64,000 bases of DNA from Phycisphaerae bacterium (lineage in GTDB: Bacteria; Planctomycetota; Phycisphaerae; Phycisphaerales; UBA1924): assembly GCA_030429705.1 (NCBI GenBank), contig JAUIES010000001.1, positions 1,612,001-1,676,000 of the forward strand, given 5' to 3'. The position numbers were made by a program, and so were the translations under genes. The notes beneath the pieces are model-generated. The model did no database searches. It worked only from the letters and a program-made list of their open reading frames with translations, and was not told where the DNA came from. Positions 26,082 to 33,624 of the stretch are shown piece after piece; position 1 is the first letter of the stretch, and every line of letters starts with the position of its first letter.

Positions 26082-28904
26082 TCAGCGAAACAGGCTCGGT
26101 ATCCACCGGGGAAGCGGACCCATCCCAAAATCAGATCGCAGACCCTGTTCCGCTCGCAGGAGCAACGGTTCAGCAGCATCCACCTGCCCCATCGATAAGA
26201 GTGCTTGCCCGAGCGTGTCGGCAAGGCGGAGTGAAACACGATCACCAGGACCAAGCCCTTGCCGAGCGGTCAGTTCAACTGCGACAAGTTCGTCGATGAC
26301 ATCCGCAGCGTCCCCCAGTTCGATATGACTGACACACCACAGCCGAAACGCTTCAAGTCGATCTCTCGACAGCGGCCGATCAGGTTGAATGCGCGTCGCG
26401 AGATCGATGGCATTTGATGCCGTCTCCCGGGCTTGTGCAAACGACCCAAGTCGAATCAACGCATGCGTCGTGCCGAGCGCAGCCGAGATTCTGTATTTGA
26501 TGTAGCGATCTAAGAGCGATTTGGTTTGTGGTTCGTCAAGATCAACCATCGCGGACGCAGCCATGCTGTCGATGCGTTCGTACATACGCAATGCGTCGGC
26601 GTATCGTCCCCCTGCCATGTCAATCGCTGCGATCTCCCGAAGCGCACTGAGGAACTGGTGTTGTTCCGCGCCAACAGACGCCTCTACAAAAGTACGATAA
26701 GCGTTGACCGACACGCGTGCTTCGTCCAGTCGGCCGCGATGTAGATAGAACGAGCCGAGCGCGAACTGGGCGTCCGCCGTTTCGCCGTGCGATGAACCAA
26801 GAATTTCGATCGATTTTTCAAGCGATTCGAGAAGCAGCCGCTCTGCTTCATCATATCGGCCTTGCTTCTCGTAAATGCCCAAAGCCAAATGACGCTGCGC
26901 GCGCACAAGGCTCGCTCGTGCTTTGGGATGACCCTGCTTGAAGATCTCGATAGCCTCGAGCAGGTGCTCTTCGCCGCTGTTGAAACTACCCAGAGTCGTC
27001 TCGACAGCACCGATATTGAAGAGCGCCCACCCGGTCTGCGCATGTCCCTCGCCAAAAACGCCACACAACCCCGCATATGCACGCTCGTGGTAAGGAATCG
27101 CTTCACTCGCGCGTCCGAGGCGGTAGAGCGTGTTTCCGATCTGATCGAGCGCGTACCAGGCGCGGCTGCTATCCGGGCCATACGCCGCCAGAGATTCGTT
27201 GTGAAATGATTCAAAGATCGCCAGGCACTCTTCCAGCCGAAAGTTCTCTTTTAGCATCTCGCCGTAGGTCCATTTGATATCGAGCCGATCCGCGTCATCG
27301 TTCGGGCGGGTCGTCTGGTAGTAATCGTGGGTCCACTCGATGTGTTCGAGCGCCAACGGCATCCAGCTGAGTTCGTAGTAGGTATTCCCAAGAATGAGCC
27401 TCACGCGAGCCTCGACTTCGGGCTCTTCGCTCAGAGCTCCCGCATCGAGTCGCTCGGTCGTGGCTGCGAGCACATCGAGCATGGTGACATCCTGCCCGTT
27501 TTCGCCAAGGTCACCCGCAGAGGTCAATACATCCTGAAGAAAGGCCTGAACTGCGTCTGCGATTGCGCGCTGTTCGTCTGCATCAATCGCATTCTGTTGA
27601 GCGCGTGTGCTCGATCGCATGGCGCTCATCGCGAGGGAGATCGACAGACCCGTGGCTGCGACAAGGACCAAGACGAAGAGCGCACTCAGAGAAACTGTGA
27701 GTCGATTTCGCGCCACAAATCGTGACATCTTGTATCGAGCCGACAGCGGCCGAGCGCGGACAGGTTGATTCGTCCGAAACGCTCGCAGATCATCCACCAG
27801 TTCGGAGACAGACTGATATCGCTGAGTGCGATCTTTTGCCATGGCCCGCATGACAATCGCATCCAGATCGCCTTTCAAAGTGCGAGCCAATCCATCCATT
27901 GACAACCCGCACCGCGCCACCACCAGGTCGCTTCGATCATCATCGGTTGCGCATCGAATGTGCTTGACGCGAAGGGACGGCTGCTTCGGCTCGGTCTCAC
28001 ACACGACGCGATCGATTTGCGACGGCAAACTCGTTCCCGACTCGATGTCCAGCGGGCGCACGCCGGTCAGCAGTTCATAAAGCACCGCTCCCAGTGCATA
28101 GACATCAGCACGGGTGTCGATATCGAGTTTGCCCCGCGCCTGCTCGGGGCTCATGTATGCTGGCGTACCCAAAAGTTGTCCGTGCATCGTGTGCGTTGTT
28201 CGGTCAACGCCCGTATCGAAGGTGATCTTGGCGATTCCAAAGTCAATGACCTGCGGCTCCGCCGAGCCGTTGCGATCGACCACCAGAATATTGCTCGGTT
28301 TGATATCGCGATGAATCACCCCCTTGGTGTGCGCATGGTGCACGGCATCGCACACCCGCACAAAGAGACTCAGCCGATCGTCAATCGTGAGTCCGCGCTC
28401 GTTGGCAAACCGTGTGAGTGGAAACCCTTCGATCAAGTCCATCACAAAAAATGGTCGGCCTTGCTCGGTCGCGCCCGCATCAAGAACCGTCGCAATGTTG
28501 GGGTGGTCCAGCATCGCCAAGAACTGTCGCTCAGCGTCAAACCGCGAGATGATGCTTCTCGTATCAAGCCCCGGCTTGAGAATCTTGACCGCGACCGTGC
28601 GGGTAATCGGCGCGAGTTGAGCAGCACGGAACACAACCGCCGATGCACCATCCCCAATTTCTTCAATCAGTTCAAACCGACCTGCAATCAGGTCGCCCGG
28701 CGTAGGTCCGATGGGTGGCTGCGTTTGGACGGGCGAAACCAAAAAAGTTTTCGGATGCGATTCGTCAAATGAGAGTAACTCTTCGACCTCGCTGCGAATG
28801 GCAGGATCATCACAATGGCTCTCAAGAAACGCACACCGATCGCACGCCGGCATATCGACAGCCGTCGAAAAGAGATCCGCAATGACGCTGGCGCGACTAA
28901 GCAT
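26082..28904 (-). CDS. Membrane-anchored Ser/Thr protein kinase with TPR repeats
   Basis: PknB-type kinase of 940 aa. The domain spans about residues 76-375: glycine-rich EEIGDGASAVVF, Lys107 in VAVKILK, HRDIKPSN at 198-205 with catalytic Asp200, DFG at 221-223 and PAYMSPEQ activation segment. One membrane span at about 403-425 follows, then a long helical region of TPR repeats (about 490-940), exported if topology follows the family. An N-terminal cysteine pair (CDRC) precedes a helical lead. The ATG at 28904 lies just before the stop of the sigma-factor gene (ATGCTTAG), so the two are coupled. Together they are the common planctomycete ECF-sigma/kinase pair; the kinase is expected to control sigma activity or its regulon. 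Confidence 0.92.
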   Translation of the reverse strand: MLSRASVIADLFSTAVDMPACDRCAFLESHCDDPAIRSEVEELLSFDESHPKTFLVSPVQTQPPIGPTPGDLIAGRFELIEEIGDGASAVVFRAAQLAPITRTVAVKILKPGLDTRSIISRFDAERQFLAMLDHPNIATVLDAGATEQGRPFFVMDLIEGFPLTRFANERGLTIDDRLSLFVRVCDAVHHAHTKGVIHRDIKPSNILVVDRNGSAEPQVIDFGIAKITFDTGVDRTTHTMHGQLLGTPAYMSPEQARGKLDIDTRADVYALGAVLYELLTGVRPLDIESGTSLPSQIDRVVCETEPKQPSLRVKHIRCATDDDRSDLVVARCGLSMDGLARTLKGDLDAIVMRAMAKDRTQRYQSVSELVDDLRAFRTNQPVRARPLSARYKMSRFVARNRLTVSLSALFVLVLVAATGLSISLAMSAMRSSTRAQQNAIDADEQRAIADAVQAFLQDVLTSAGDLGENGQDVTMLDVLAATTERLDAGALSEEPEVEARVRLILGNTYYELSWMPLALEHIEWTHDYYQTTRPNDDADRLDIKWTYGEMLKENFRLEECLAIFESFHNESLAAYGPDSSRAWYALDQIGNTLYRLGRASEAIPYHERAYAGLCGVFGEGHAQTGWALFNIGAVETTLGSFNSGEEHLLEAIEIFKQGHPKARASLVRAQRHLALGIYEKQGRYDEAERLLLESLEKSIEILGSSHGETADAQFALGSFYLHRGRLDEARVSVNAYRTFVEASVGAEQHQFLSALREIAAIDMAGGRYADALRMYERIDSMAASAMVDLDEPQTKSLLDRYIKYRISAALGTTHALIRLGSFAQARETASNAIDLATRIQPDRPLSRDRLEAFRLWCVSHIELGDAADVIDELVAVELTARQGLGPGDRVSLRLADTLGQALLSMGQVDAAEPLLLRAEQGLRSDFGMGPLPRWIPSLFR

Positions 28905-29505
28905 CGGTGGGGGCCTCGCCTTCCATCGCACGACGAAGCCACGCGCACGCAAAACGCCAATCGCGTTTGACCGTTGAGAGACCAATATCCAATGCCTCGG
29001 CGACCTGCTCAGAGGTGAGTCCTGCGAAGTATCGCAGCATGACGACTTGAGCTGGTCGAGGATGATCAGTTGCGAGTTGTTCGATGACCTCATCGAGTGC
29101 CAAGATCTCATCAATCGGCAACCCTTCGGTCATGTCGGGTATATCCCAGTCATCCGCCGCGACTCGACGCCGATCGCCGCCGTGTTTGACAGCAGATTTC
29201 CGACGAGCCTGGTCAACCAAAATGTTTCGCATGGCTTTGGCAGCAGCCCCAAAAAAGTGCGCACGCCCATGCCAACCAGGATCACGCTCGCCCACAATGC
29301 GCAGAAATACATCATGAACGAGTGCAGTCGGTTGCAGTGTTTGTCCCGGAGGAAGATGAGCAAGCCGATGGGCTGCCAGTCGTCGCAACTCGTCATAGAT
29401 GACGGGCAGGAGGTCTGCAGCCGACTGCTTCTCGGACTCATCGCATTGATTGCACCCGCCACTCGGTCGAGCGTTCGCAGATGTGTTCGGGTCGGATGCA
29501 CACAT
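28897..29505 (-). CDS. ECF RNA polymerase sigma factor
   Basis: Sigma-70-family ECF factor of the planctomycete/acidobacterial group that pairs with protein kinases. Sigma region 2 is LLPVIYDELRRLAAHRL then LVHDVFLRIVGE and the FFGAAAKAMRNILVDQARRK stretch; region 4 helix-turn-helix is LTSEQVAEALDIGLSTVKRDW near the C-terminus. I set the start at 29505, giving 202 aa, because the family begins shortly before the helix of region 2; the frame stays open to 29634, and no ribosome binding site clearly decides. It is coupled to the kinase gene and faces the secreted-protein run at 29733-33624, an attractive but unproven regulon. Confidence 0.88.
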   Translation of the reverse strand: MCASDPNTSANARPSGGCNQCDESEKQSAADLLPVIYDELRRLAAHRLAHLPPGQTLQPTALVHDVFLRIVGERDPGWHGRAHFFGAAAKAMRNILVDQARRKSAVKHGGDRRRVAADDWDIPDMTEGLPIDEILALDEVIEQLATDHPRPAQVVMLRYFAGLTSEQVAEALDIGLSTVKRDWRFACAWLRRAMEGEAPTDA

Positions 29506-29732
29506 ACAGCCTGATTGTCGCGGACCCACCGCCCTGATGCAAGGCCGAATCCAATGATCAGCATGGAAAGCGAGGCAGGACACGCATTGCTCCATCAAAC
29601 CTGGGTCTGCCATCCAATACGAAATTTTGACCACCGATGGACCGCGCTCATGTGCATTTTCGAATTGCCAGCGTGATCACGCAACTGGTCACATGAGAAC
29701 GCACCAGGATCTTGACCACAGGGAGCACAGTG

Positions 29733-31208
29733 ATGAATCGAATACGAACCGGAACAATCGCACTCATTTTGGCGGCAGCATGCGGAGCATCCACGCTCGC
29801 AAGTGACACCGAGTTTACCTACCAGGGCAGCCTGCAGGACGCAGGTGTACCGGCAGTCGGTTCGTATGACATCGAGTTTCGTCTCTGGAGTGCTGCTGCA
29901 GGCGGTTCGATGATCGCTTCACAAACGATCAGCAACATTGCAGTCACCGACGGTCTCTTTCAGGCAGCCCTCGACTTCGGACCTGCTGCGTTCAACAACA
30001 GCGATCGATGGCTCGAGATGGTTGTCGAAGGAACAACCCTGATGCCGCGTCAGCCGGTCACAAGAGCGCCGTACGCGATTCAAACGCGCGGGATTTTCGT
30101 TGATGACGCGGGCAATGTCGGTATCGGTACCACGAGCCCGTCTTCACAACTGACCATGCGCGGACCGGATGTCGATCTGCTCCTCAATTCTCAAGGCGAT
30201 GACTTTGGTCCATCGCTGACTTTCAGAAACACAGCTGGCGGATTGAACACACGAATGGGCAACATCGTGTTCAGTGACAGCAGCCAACTGGCGTCGCTCG
30301 GCTATGTTAAACCACTCTTTGGACCCCAGGGTTTCCAAATCTCTGGTGCTTCATCTGCATTCATGAAGGTGACCGATCTAGGCCTGTTTGGCTTTGGTGG
30401 TGAGTTGAATCCCCAAGCTCTGTTTCACTTTCAGAATGAAGACATCAACCTGAGCAGTTCGCACTACCAACTGATGGACATGGTCATCGAAGCCACGGAT
30501 GCCAGGATGGGTCTCTACAGCACAAATGGTGGAACTTACGGCTCGGTCTTCTCGCTCGGAGAACTCGCGGGAGGGAATCTGGTCGATGCTTGGCATATCG
30601 GGCGAACGACCTCGGGGACAGGCGCAGCAAGTACCCTCTACTTCAAGTACGGCTCAGAGGTCGAACAATCCGCCAACGGTAGCAAGATGGTCATCGCACC
30701 CAACGGTGATGTCGGTATCGGCGTCAGCATTCCAAGCGCCAAACTGCATGTCGACGGCAATGCACGCGTTGATGTGCTCGAAGTTATGGGCGCCGATCTC
30801 GCAGAACGATTCCCCGTCGCGTCAAATGACTTCATAGAGCCCGGTACCGTGCTCGAAATTGATCCCGAAAACCCAGGCTCATTGCGCGTCGCAACCAGCG
30901 CGTACAGCCACCTCGTGGCAGGCGTCGTCAGTGGTGCCAACGGCCTGCCGGCGGGGACCATCATGGGCAATCTGGACGGGCTCGAAGACTCGCCTGCAAT
31001 TGCGCTCTCCGGCCGAGTCTGGGTTCGCTGCGATTCGTCGACAGAAGCCATCCACCCCGGAGACATGCTGACCACGGCGACCACCGCCGGGTACGCCATG
31101 CGAGCGAGCGACCAAACCCGCATCGCAGGTTCAGTAATCGGGAAAGCGATGACGAGCCTCAGAAAGGGCGAAAAGGGTCTGGTGCTCGTGCTCGTCAATC
31201 TCCAGTAA
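29733..31208 (+). CDS. Secreted fibre-like protein (collar/tail-fibre-type repeats)
   Basis: A signal peptide ends near residue 23 (GASTLASDT), then FTYQGSLQDAGVPAVGSYDIEFRLW, a beta domain common in secreted planctomycete and Bacteroidota proteins. After about residue 110 come GNVGIGTTSPSSQL and later GDVGIGVSIPSAKLHVDG, the short repeat units that alternate with beta blocks in trimeric fibre-like (phage-tail-fibre-type) surface proteins. The last 150 residues (ADLAERFPVASNDFIEPGTVLEID onward) look like the conserved C-terminal head of these proteins. GGGAG about eight bases before the ATG at 29733 decides the start. It is the first gene of a plus-strand run of secreted proteins opposite the ECF/kinase pair. 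Confidence 0.75.
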   Translation: MNRIRTGTIALILAAACGASTLASDTEFTYQGSLQDAGVPAVGSYDIEFRLWSAAAGGSMIASQTISNIAVTDGLFQAALDFGPAAFNNSDRWLEMVVEGTTLMPRQPVTRAPYAIQTRGIFVDDAGNVGIGTTSPSSQLTMRGPDVDLLLNSQGDDFGPSLTFRNTAGGLNTRMGNIVFSDSSQLASLGYVKPLFGPQGFQISGASSAFMKVTDLGLFGFGGELNPQALFHFQNEDINLSSSHYQLMDMVIEATDARMGLYSTNGGTYGSVFSLGELAGGNLVDAWHIGRTTSGTGAASTLYFKYGSEVEQSANGSKMVIAPNGDVGIGVSIPSAKLHVDGNARVDVLEVMGADLAERFPVASNDFIEPGTVLEIDPENPGSLRVATSAYSHLVAGVVSGANGLPAGTIMGNLDGLEDSPAIALSGRVWVRCDSSTEAIHPGDMLTTATTAGYAMRASDQTRIAGSVIGKAMTSLRKGEKGLVLVLVNLQ

Positions 31209-31236: not shown

Positions 31237-32196
31237 ATGCTTGTGAGCACCATTTGTGTTGCACTCGTTTCGATGAACATGTCCAACAGTGCGTCGCGAT
31301 CAGAGGTTGTCAACCCGCAACCGATCCAGTCTTTCTACTGCCCGGTCGAGCCCATTGGCATTCAGTTTCGTGGCGGCGGCATGATAAACGACGGCTGGGA
31401 CGGACCCGGTCAGGGCTCAACCACGCTCTACTTCCATTTCGAGAACTACTCCGACGACCTCGCGTTTCGAGATCAACGCGAAGCCTGTATCTTCGCGCTC
31501 GCAACCTGGGCAAGCATCGTCCAGATCGACTTCGTCGAAATCGGCGCACCCAACTGGAACAGATCAATCGACTTTCGCTGGGCAAGGGGTAACCACTGTG
31601 CTATTGAGAGTGGCGAGTGTGGCGATGTTGACTGTCCTTTCGATGGCGAAGGAGGTGTGATCGCGCACGCCGGATTCACACCGGGTGCTGCGTCGCAATG
31701 TGTCAGTCCCATGCTCGAAACCTGGGCCGGCAATGTCCACTTCGATGACGACGACTTGTATGAGCGTGACAACGCGGGAGATGGGCTCAGTTTGACATTC
31801 GTTGCGGCTCACGAAATCGGGCACGCACTCGGGCTCGTCCACGATGTGGGTCCGGGCGGGCCGCACATTATGCGCACATCTGTGAATGCCTCGCAAGGGA
31901 TGCAAGCGCCGTCCGCTTCAGATATCGCCCATCTTCAGAGCGGGTACGCTGCAGGAGTCGGCAGCGTGCAAAAACTCGAAGACTCTGGCATTTGGGTCAA
32001 TTCGGCTTTCACTTTCGCGGAAAACGGTCTGCCCGGAAACCCGTTCAACACTATTCAAGAAGCCATCGACGCCATGCCGCCGCAAAACGACGGCATTACG
32101 ATTCATGTGATCGGAGGCCTCTATCCGGGGTCGATCACCTTCGATGAGCCCTGCACCATCACCGCAGAAGTGAACACAGCATTTATCGGTCAGTAA
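31237..32196 (+). CDS. Secreted M10-like metalloprotease
   Basis: A zinc metalloprotease of the metzincin clan (matrixin-like, M10): HEIGHALGLVHD with ligands His192, His196, His202 and catalytic Glu193, and a Met-turn at Met212 (IMRTS). The N-terminus, MLVSTICVALVSMNM, is a short possible signal. A Trp-rich core (GGGMINDGWDGPGQG..TLYFHFEN) and RSIDFRW are shared with the next gene. After the catalytic domain the chain ends in a 75-residue block, beginning GNPFNTIQEAID and ending AEVNTAFIGQ, that resembles the start of a right-handed beta-helix. It is about 60 percent alike to the next gene by eye. Six cysteines suggest disulphides in the envelope. Confidence 0.85.
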   Translation: MLVSTICVALVSMNMSNSASRSEVVNPQPIQSFYCPVEPIGIQFRGGGMINDGWDGPGQGSTTLYFHFENYSDDLAFRDQREACIFALATWASIVQIDFVEIGAPNWNRSIDFRWARGNHCAIESGECGDVDCPFDGEGGVIAHAGFTPGAASQCVSPMLETWAGNVHFDDDDLYERDNAGDGLSLTFVAAHEIGHALGLVHDVGPGGPHIMRTSVNASQGMQAPSASDIAHLQSGYAAGVGSVQKLEDSGIWVNSAFTFAENGLPGNPFNTIQEAIDAMPPQNDGITIHVIGGLYPGSITFDEPCTITAEVNTAFIGQ

Positions 32197-32214: not shown

Positions 32215-33186
32215 ATGCGTTTTGCGAGAACGACCTTGCAGGTCATGCTAGTGTGCACGGCCGCGTCGGCCCAACCACTCTCGACACCACAGTACGCCAA
32301 TGCCACGGCACATACTGACGAGGGCGTCCAACATCGGGGGGGACAACCCGGCGGCATGGTCAATGACGGGTGGGATGGTGTCGGGCAGCACGCCACGACG
32401 CTCTACTTCCATATCGAAAACGCCAGCCCGCGCGGGACGCAAGCCGGTCAGCGCACCGCCATGCTCACAGCCCTGCAGACATGGGCGGATGTCGTGCAGA
32501 TCCATTTCGTCGAGACAGCCGTCCCAAATCGCTCTCGTTCCATCGATTTTCGGTGGGAGGCGGGCGAACACTGCGCGAGCGAGCCCGCCGAATGCGGAGA
32601 CCCCGATTGCGTTTTCGATGGGCCGGGTAACCGCTTCTATCACGCCGCGTACCCGCCCGGCGGCAACAGCCCGTGCGGCGGCGTCGCAACCGAACCGCAC
32701 GCAGGGAACATCCACTTCGATATTGATGACGGATTTCAAGAGAACAACGACCCCGGTTTCAACGGCATCAGTCTGGCGCTGACTGCGGCACACTGCATCG
32801 GTCATGCGCTCGGCCTCGGTGACAACACAACCGGCAATCCCGATGCGTTCCGCAGCATCATGGACAATCGAGACCTCAGGTCCCGGTCGCTGTTCTTTCC
32901 GTCTGAAGCCGACATCATTCACATTCAAGAGGGTTACGCCGCAGGCACGGGTTCGGTGACCACACTCGAGGACCAGGGCATCTGGGTCAATGGCTCATGG
33001 CTCGGGGCCGAGTTTGGGACACCGGGCAATCCGTTCGACACCGTCGCAGAAGCGGTCCAAGGTGTACCGCCATTCGCGCCGGATGTTACAATTCACTTGC
33101 TTGGCGGGCAATATCCTGAGACAATCACCATCGCCACGCCTTGTGTGATCACCGCCGAGTTCAGCACCGCCTACATCGGGCAATAG
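32215..33186 (+). CDS. Tandem metalloprotease paralogue with degenerate active site
   Basis: A 323-aa paralogue of the preceding gene, starting 19 bases after its stop, with a clearer signal peptide (MRFARTTLQV to ASAQ). The fold and cysteine pattern match (GGMVNDGWDGVGQ, TLYFHIEN, RSIDFRWEAGEHC, the C-terminal GNPFDTVAEAV and AEFSTAYIGQ). The metzincin motif reads HCIGHALGLGD (193-203): catalytic Glu becomes Cys194 and the third zinc His becomes Asp203; a Met-turn-like SIMD (Met216) remains. The codons at 32791-32823 are intact, not a frameshift. It is therefore probably non-proteolytic, perhaps a binding or regulatory partner of the first copy, or an unusual variant with a Cys or Asp ligand. 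Confidence 0.85.
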   Translation: MRFARTTLQVMLVCTAASAQPLSTPQYANATAHTDEGVQHRGGQPGGMVNDGWDGVGQHATTLYFHIENASPRGTQAGQRTAMLTALQTWADVVQIHFVETAVPNRSRSIDFRWEAGEHCASEPAECGDPDCVFDGPGNRFYHAAYPPGGNSPCGGVATEPHAGNIHFDIDDGFQENNDPGFNGISLALTAAHCIGHALGLGDNTTGNPDAFRSIMDNRDLRSRSLFFPSEADIIHIQEGYAAGTGSVTTLEDQGIWVNGSWLGAEFGTPGNPFDTVAEAVQGVPPFAPDVTIHLLGGQYPETITIATPCVITAEFSTAYIGQ

Positions 33187-33204: not shown

Positions 33205-33624
33205 ATGCATCGCACGACACTGGTAATAGCCTTCATAGTTTGTATCGCAACAGGCCTCGTCACTGCCAAAGCCGCCGCCCAGCCGTTCACGCTGAACTGG
33301 TACACCATCGATGGTGGGGGTGGCACCAGCACCGGGGGGACTTTTGAACTTTCTGGAACAATCGGTCAACCCGATGCGAGTGGAGCTCTGACTGCAGGCT
33401 CGTTCGAACTCACCGGCGGCTTCTGGGCTGATCTTGGCACCGGCGGTCCGTGCAGCGATGCCGATTTCGTCGAGCCCTTCGGCGTGCTCGACTTTTTCGA
33501 TGTGCTCGAGTTTCTCGGCGCGTTCGCTGCGATGGAATCTAGCGCCGACATGAACAACGACACGGTGCACGACTTCTTCGATGTGCAGTTGTTTCTGCAG
33601 GCGTTCAGCATGGGTTGCCCATAG
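33205..33624 (+). CDS. Small secreted protein with dockerin-like C-terminus
   Basis: A 139-aa protein. Signal peptide to about residue 26 (TGLVTAKAAAQ), a short beta region (FTLNWYTIDGGGGTSTGGTFELSGTIGQPDAS, about residues 28-60) typical of a planctomycete repeat that carries GTSTGGxFELSGTIGQPDA, then a Gly/Pro turn and a C-terminal pair of dockerin-type calcium loops: DFVEPFGVLDFFDVLEFL and DMNNDTVHDFFDVQLFL, ending SMGCP. The FFDV-xx-FL spacing is a planctomycete/Phycisphaera-type dockerin variant. It follows the pseudo-protease by 18 bases and could be a docking partner or a surface-anchoring protein of the same transcript. Confidence 0.75.
   Translation: MHRTTLVIAFIVCIATGLVTAKAAAQPFTLNWYTIDGGGGTSTGGTFELSGTIGQPDASGALTAGSFELTGGFWADLGTGGPCSDADFVEPFGVLDFFDVLEFLGAFAAMESSADMNNDTVHDFFDVQLFLQAFSMGCP

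Follow-up and report, generated by a model that had tools for sequence, protein, structure and literature searches.

Two tandem genes in the stretch of 64,000 nucleotides analysed here (the window) encode an intact matrixin-type metalloprotease, P1, and a paralogue, P2, that has a degenerate catalytic motif and is very probably a conserved protein without peptidase function. We hold, with slightly more confidence than doubt, that duplication of a matrixin-type protease gave rise to P2, that P2 is now maintained as a secreted pseudoprotease, and that it serves as an accessory partner tuning P1 by binding. The narrower claim that P2 tunes P1 by binding is advanced tentatively, with our doubts a little the stronger.

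The intact copy, the degenerate copy and their neighbourhood

P1 (31237..32196, forward strand) is an open frame of 319 residues, lying where a preliminary description of the window had placed it, and encodes a secreted-type matrixin (M10) metalloprotease. Its residues 62-237 match the Pfam family Peptidase_M10 (PF00413) above the cut-off (1.1e-21). The catalytic motif HEIGHALGLVHD (31810..31845, forward strand, starting CAC GAA) contains an intact HEIGHALGLVH site, and P1 therefore has the HExxHxxGxxH zinc and base motif of a catalytic matrixin or metzincin. Judged by eye, the N-terminus is hydrophobic and has no basic residues.

P2 (32215..33186, forward strand) is an open frame of 323 residues with 54% identity to P1, which bears out its earlier description as a tandem paralogue in an intact frame. 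It matches Peptidase_M10 with 56.8 bits (cut-off 24; PF00413, 3.2e-15) and is thereby assigned by homology to the matrixin fold family; the match covers residues 61-205 only, and the region after the motif does not lengthen it. The motif reads HCIGHALGLGD (32791..32823, forward strand, starting CAC TGC), and HExxHxxGxxH is absent. The preliminary description saw here a Cys for the catalytic Glu and an Asp for the third zinc His. The Cys is confirmed by its codon, TGC at 32794-32796, while the Asp depends on the alignment: a one-residue gap introduced by MAFFT places Gly at the third-ligand position, and ungapped counting places Asp there, as in the HMIGHALGLQD of a relative (G389). Going from GAA to TGC changes all three codon bases, and a simple read error is therefore unlikely; sequencing or assembly error was rejected on this ground and because the Glu is also missing from the same site in two other genera. 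The start of P2, MRFARTTLQVMLVCTAASAQP, looks by eye like a conventional signal peptide, in line with what had been described. The Met of the Met-turn that was reported together with the signal peptide lies 13 positions after the third ligand by ungapped count, three residues later than in P1, with Phe in the aligned column; the distance is 10 positions in both P1 and the P2 copy of G389. AlphaFold2 models built on three-row alignments had mean pLDDT values of 28.6 (P2) and 28.7 (P1) and were left unused.

The genome that contains the window (G000; 3.49 Mb, estimated 96% complete) was searched for further relatives. P1 and P2 were the only genes found with P2 as query at E <= 10, and the Peptidase_M10 profile found one further gene above its cut-off (G000:C5:345207, HExxHxxGxxH intact) and eight weaker matches below it.

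Both proteins end in a C-terminal module (P1 residues 237-319, 31945..32193; P2 residues 241-323, 32935..33183; forward strand), and related modules in other class proteins likewise end at the C-terminus or close to it. The last ~75 residues of P1 and P2 follow roughly the pattern NPFxTxxEAxx...TIxxxGGxYxxxxTIxxPxTxxAxxGTAxIGQ, and the module recurs in class proteins that are otherwise unlike the protease part (at loci L074, L079, L039, L037, L076, L029 and others). Within G000 it was found in P1 and P2 only, at E <= 0.01. Among the matches listed, it ends three residues or fewer from the stop codon in 14 of 16 non-identical cases. The module had no Pfam match at E <= 0.1, and that of P1 had two NCBIfam matches, far below the cut-off. 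A function in surface sorting or attachment is possible for it.

P1 and P2 lie on one strand in the gene order TF, P1, [P2], D, where the brackets mark a gene that some genomes lack. TF (29712..31208, forward strand), directly upstream of P1, is a secreted-type protein with no assigned family (neither Pfam, at E <= 0.1, nor NCBIfam, at E <= 1, gave a match). A TF homologue precedes P1 in all five other genomes that have that side on the contig, directly upstream in G040, G345 and G175, and in G389 and G341 showing its end at the edge of the contig; the contig of G293 begins inside its first copy. D (33205..33624, forward strand), directly downstream of P2, is a small protein of secreted type, in which NCBIfam NF041540 identifies a GC-type dockerin domain (39.3 bits against a cut-off of 29). 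Homologues of D lie downstream in five of the six other genomes (G040, G341, G389, G293 and G175), and none was found near the cluster of G345. G175 has a second TF-like gene (L018 8730-10223) between P1 and D, the place that P2 occupies in G000.

Divergent from TF lies a gene for an ECF sigma factor (28897..29634, reverse strand; PF07638, 2.9e-50), a candidate regulator, adjoined by a gene for a Ser/Thr protein kinase with TPR repeats (26082..29114, reverse strand; PF00069, 7.7e-36). Homologues occur near the cluster in four of the six other genomes for the sigma factor (G345, G175, G040 and G293) and in five for the kinase (the same four and G341), with the contig of G389 ending on this side. 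The pair is a candidate for signalling control of the protease cluster. The P1-P2 and P2-D gaps are 18 bases each and contain purine-rich, ribosome-binding-like stretches, including GGAGGAG ahead of the P2 start. Promoter and terminator scans at the cluster found no more than in shuffled sequence, so that co-transcription of P1 and P2 is argued from spacing and synteny.

Related copies in other genomes and selection on P2

The search for P2 covered 163 genomes of the family and 181 of a second family to which G175 belongs, together with 400 genomes from the order and 397 from the class, in overlapping sets. Matches over most of P2, at 43-56% identity, were found by these searches in only six other genomes: G040, G341, G345 and G389 of the same family, and G175 and G293 of the second. 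Everything else that these searches matched was weak and incomplete (best 2.6e-12). With the three P2 sequences as a profile, 25 of the 397 class genomes were reached at E <= 1e-5, all of them distant except G000 and G040; the profile of all 11 family members, run against 392 phylum genomes, contributed nothing beyond distant matches in four genomes of a single family at E <= 1e-15. A pattern search of viral contigs was without a match. One further contig locus with the motif stretch of G175 was treated as that genome's own record and counted once.

An intact copy is followed directly by another in both G345 and G389, where the second of the two has AKMIGHALGLQSN and AHMIGHALGLQDN, respectively. 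P2 thus lies directly behind an intact P1 in three of three genomes (G000, G345 and G389), which represent three genera. G040, G341 and G175 have a single intact copy, P1 without P2; G341 shares a genus code with G389, yet lacks P2. The P1 orthologues of G040, G345, G389, G341 and G175 all keep HExxHxxGxxH. G293 has two copies with intact motifs that cluster together in the tree (L022 1-1993), and because both are intact and group together, it seems that tandem duplication occurred at least twice in the family and that one duplicate line alone lost its site.

The three P2 sequences, the sample available among the genomes searched, form one clade with support 99/99, which stays at 99/99 when the motif columns are removed; the tree was rooted on G293 by choice and leaves the P1 branch order unresolved. 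The branches of P2 are longer than those of P1, as would be expected of relaxed constraint.

All three P2 copies, across three genera, are without the catalytic Glu and without the third zinc His. In the order G000/G345/G389, the Glu column reads Cys/Met/Met, the first zinc His column H/K/H, the second H/H/H and the third, as aligned, G/S/D (Asp in G000 if ungapped), and the G345 copy is eroded further than the other two. The motif is intact in all eight P1-type rows of the 11-row alignment. It is also kept in 20 of 20 more distant M10 homologues with a motif-spanning match, among the matches listed, so that its loss is special to P2 among the sequences examined. These 20 leave out the first half-match of L030, as well as four partial matches whose start lies at or beyond profile position 178 (L009, L040, L069 and L071); L040 shows HELGHLWGAHH, and the L009 frame has no such motif.

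The preliminary description had left room for a private error, to be judged by the motif of the orthologues, and the two further copies without HExxHxxGxxH show that the loss of the Glu is not private. A private mutation was accordingly rejected for the Glu, missing in three genera, and accepted for the Cys itself. Loss of catalysis is, as judged from the residues present, conserved in the P2 line, and the Cys is private.

Further sites that set P2 apart from all P1-type rows, besides the Glu and the third His, include the acidic residues at P1 positions 171 (I/L/L in P2) and 176 (Q/K/Q). These positions adjoin the HFD stretch, which in MMPs contributes to calcium binding. The three predicted structural-zinc His (columns of P1 H120, H144 and H168) are kept in every one of the 11 rows, those of P2 among them; they align to the structural-zinc His of karilysin and MMPs, and their role in metal binding is presumably the same as in MMPs. 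The column of P1 Asp130 reads D/I/Q in P2 and holds Val in one P1 row.

The cysteines differ among copies. The motif Cys of P2 (Cys194) is private to G000, with no Cys at its position in the other 10 aligned members of the family. Cys84 of P1 (31486-31488) likewise stands at a position that is free of Cys in the other 10, and both private cysteines occur in one genome, G000. Six mature cysteines are present in eight of the nine P1 and P2 copies outside G293, the exception being P1 of G000 with seven outside the presumed signal peptide; both copies of G293 depart from the six-Cys count and are without the HC...EC cysteine pair. Cys35 of P1 lies near the N-terminus in a short stretch, C-[PDE]-x-[EV]-[PA], found in seven of seven P1-type copies whose N-terminus is available, within a segment that is otherwise poorly alignable. 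It could act like the cysteine switch of MMPs. Two of the three P2 copies lack an equivalent. As a weak idea, we mention that the motif Cys of P2 might replace a lost N-terminal partner.

We characterized selection on P2 by fitting a Goldman-Yang-type codon model with a separate omega on the P2 branches. Because of saturation at synonymous sites, and with some branch lengths at their bounds, omega is bounded and has no point estimate. Compared to the free fit, fixing omega on the P2-clade branches at 0.1, 0.2 or 1 was worse by 9, 32 and 183 lnL units, respectively; omega of 1 was worse by 18 on the G000 P2 tip alone, and on the stem branch of the clade all values tried fell within 1 lnL. In six simulated sets, a true omega of 1 was recovered as 1.10 and 0.82, 0.3 as 0.30 and 0.31, and 0.1 as 0.11 and 0.08; the simulated branches (0.8-1.4) are shorter than those freely fitted to the real data, and these sets check the code rather than the saturated case. 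By region, the P2 clade disfavours omega of 1 against the best value tried by 114 lnL for the catalytic-type domain and by 73 for the C-terminal module; the corresponding figures for the G000 P2 branch are 10.6 and 6.5.

Identities between the three genomes that have both copies locate the relaxation of constraint. Over residues 46-319, identity is 67-68% for P1 pairs and 52-60% for P2 pairs. In the C-terminal module the two sets agree (60-66% for P1 pairs, 61-65% for P2 pairs), and this module is as conserved among P2 copies as among P1 copies. After the motif (206-236), P1 pairs are 55-65% identical and P2 pairs 13-60%, the low end being G000 P2 against the copies of G345 and G389 (13-20%). 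The P2 frames are open in all three genomes, with 295-323 residues.

Neutral decay of P2 was rejected, since the frames are open in three of three and omega of 1 is rejected for both the clade and the G000 branch. The codon comparisons indicate that P2 is under purifying selection, with omega far below 1 and not near 1, the value that the preliminary description had tied to decay. Its claim that P2 is under selection is upheld: the motif is lost in two other genera, in one clade, and neutral evolution is rejected.

The role of P2 and its rival readings

A metzincin without the water-activating Glu and the third ligand is not expected to have peptidase activity, and none is expected of P2 from its residues; weak hydrolytic or other activity may be possible in the G000 and G389 copies, where two His and perhaps an Asp are left. 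The simplest reading that fits the sequences is a maintained non-catalytic protein that would act by binding. Having arisen from a duplicated matrixin-type protease, P2 would fold but not cut. It would be made with P1 from one transcription unit and be brought by the shared C-terminal module to the same place as P1. There it would bind the substrates of P1, as a decoy or holder, or P1 itself, thereby tuning P1. Three genomes have P1 but no P2, which makes P2 more probably an accessory or regulatory partner than an obligatory subunit, and the position of P2 behind P1 in three of three genomes favours a tie between the two.

That tie is denied by the reading of P2 as a stand-alone binding protein or adhesin, linked to P1 through ancestry and operon only, whose emptied cleft and C-terminal module would take hold of an extracellular polymer or surface protein. 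The genomes with P1 alone show that no interaction is required, the C-terminal module is equally conserved in P2 and P1 while the stretch after the motif has fallen to 13-20% identity between G000 and the other two, and a dockerin-domain protein lies in the cluster. However, P2 is found only directly behind an intact P1, which suggests a tie, and we regard the stand-alone binder as unlikely, if well short of implausible. Tying the two more closely than our preferred reading does, an obligatory P1-P2 heterodimer with P2 as its non-catalytic subunit would be quite improbable: to our knowledge, characterised matrixins act without a homologous partner, and P1 stands alone in G040, G341 and G175, so that the two are not jointly present throughout. 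The adjacency of one active-type and one inactive-type gene argues for such a pair, and there is a precedent in the M16B protein TTHA1264, which forms a heterodimer with the product of its neighbour gene, TTHA1265 (PMC12731061).

The preliminary description also offered a new Cys/Asp-based site. An enzyme of a new type that relies on Cys, or on Cys and Asp, or a metalloenzyme that ligates zinc through HHD, would draw on the two His and the ungapped Asp that remain in G000 and G389, and on the Asp third ligand known from the HEXXHXXGXXD Asp-zincins (PMC3890501). The Asp-zincin motif retains its Glu, however, and the P2 site has no conserved alternative nucleophile. Because the Cys is private to G000 and replaced by Met in both other copies, and G345 has Lys for the first His and Ser as third ligand, a shared replacement chemistry is improbable; the Cys-Asp pair, whose conservation had been suggested as a check, is not kept, and we consider a new enzyme very unlikely. 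A decaying duplicate heading for loss is the least probable reading. It would explain the lost catalytic residues, the absence of P2 from G040, G341 and G175 and the faster branches, but not the open frames of 295-323 residues in three of three or the rejection of omega of 1 by 183 lnL (clade) and 18 lnL (G000 P2 branch).

A more specific form of our preferred reading, the maintained pseudoprotease that tunes P1, is speculative and rather improbable as a whole: P2 would be a dedicated, co-secreted pseudomatrixin that regulates a bacterial matrixin, kept beside it at a single surface site through the C-terminal module that both have, with an emptied and reshaped cleft that binds P1 or its substrate and times cutting, and possibly with a Cys194-Cys84 disulfide.

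Comparison with known systems

The best solved match is karilysin, a bacterial matrixin of family M10 (PDB 2xs3/4r3v; 8.4e-18 with the family profile, 3.6e-13 with P2 alone), followed by MMPs. Karilysin shares with P1 and P2 the FDG, AHA and HFD stretches and the motif-helix region. Wild-type karilysin has HExxHxxGxxH, whereas P2 lacks the Glu and the third His; P1 and P2 also have Cys-bearing insertions in the aligned region, and their C-terminal module lies outside the match.

Among metzincins, the pseudopeptidase ADAMs (M12B; ADAM2, 11, 22, 23, 29 and 32) have a substituted HExGHxxGxxH, as P2 does, and binding or assembly roles are described for some of them (PMC11266112). ADAM32 (QMLAL) has Met for Glu, as in two P2 copies. 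Unlike P2, ADAMs are animal multidomain membrane proteins of another family, and no ADAM motif shown in the available part of that review has Cys for Glu; the metzincin pseudopeptidases treated at length there are the animal ADAMs (PMC11266112). Across zincin families more broadly, CLCA included, breakdown of HExxH is frequent and patterned, and decoy or accessory roles have been suggested for the substituted members (PMC3650047). The His-to-Lys substitution reported there is also found in P2 of G345; the frequent Glu replacements are Gln, Leu and Ala, with Cys and Met not named in the portion available (PMC3650047).

The M16B pairs TTHA1264/TTHA1265 and SPH2681/SPH2682 combine a bacterial metallopeptidase with a homologous partner, like P1 and P2, and the partner gene of TTHA1264 is its neighbour, as P2 is to P1 (PMC12731061). 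They differ in belonging to another family with an HXXEH motif and in that the pair is the active form (PMC12731061), while P1 often occurs without P2. The Asp-zincins and snapalysin (M7, DUF1025; HEXXHXXGXXD) have Asp at the third-ligand position (PMC3890501), but their motif retains the catalytic Glu that the P2 copies lack (Cys/Met/Met), and the Asp of P2 is not conserved, being Ser in G345.

No title or abstract opening on a tandem bacterial pseudomatrixin was found within a partial coverage of the literature. As far as these sources extend, animal metzincin pseudopeptidases, widespread HExxH breakdown and M16B pairs are already known, and what is added here is an adjacent pair of an active-type and a putatively dead matrixin. 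The cluster joins both bacterial copies in one place, with substitutions that vary by genus, and occurs in natural genomes with and without the dead copy. Because both kinds of genome exist, the role of a metzincin pseudoenzyme is testable as P1 versus P1 with P2.
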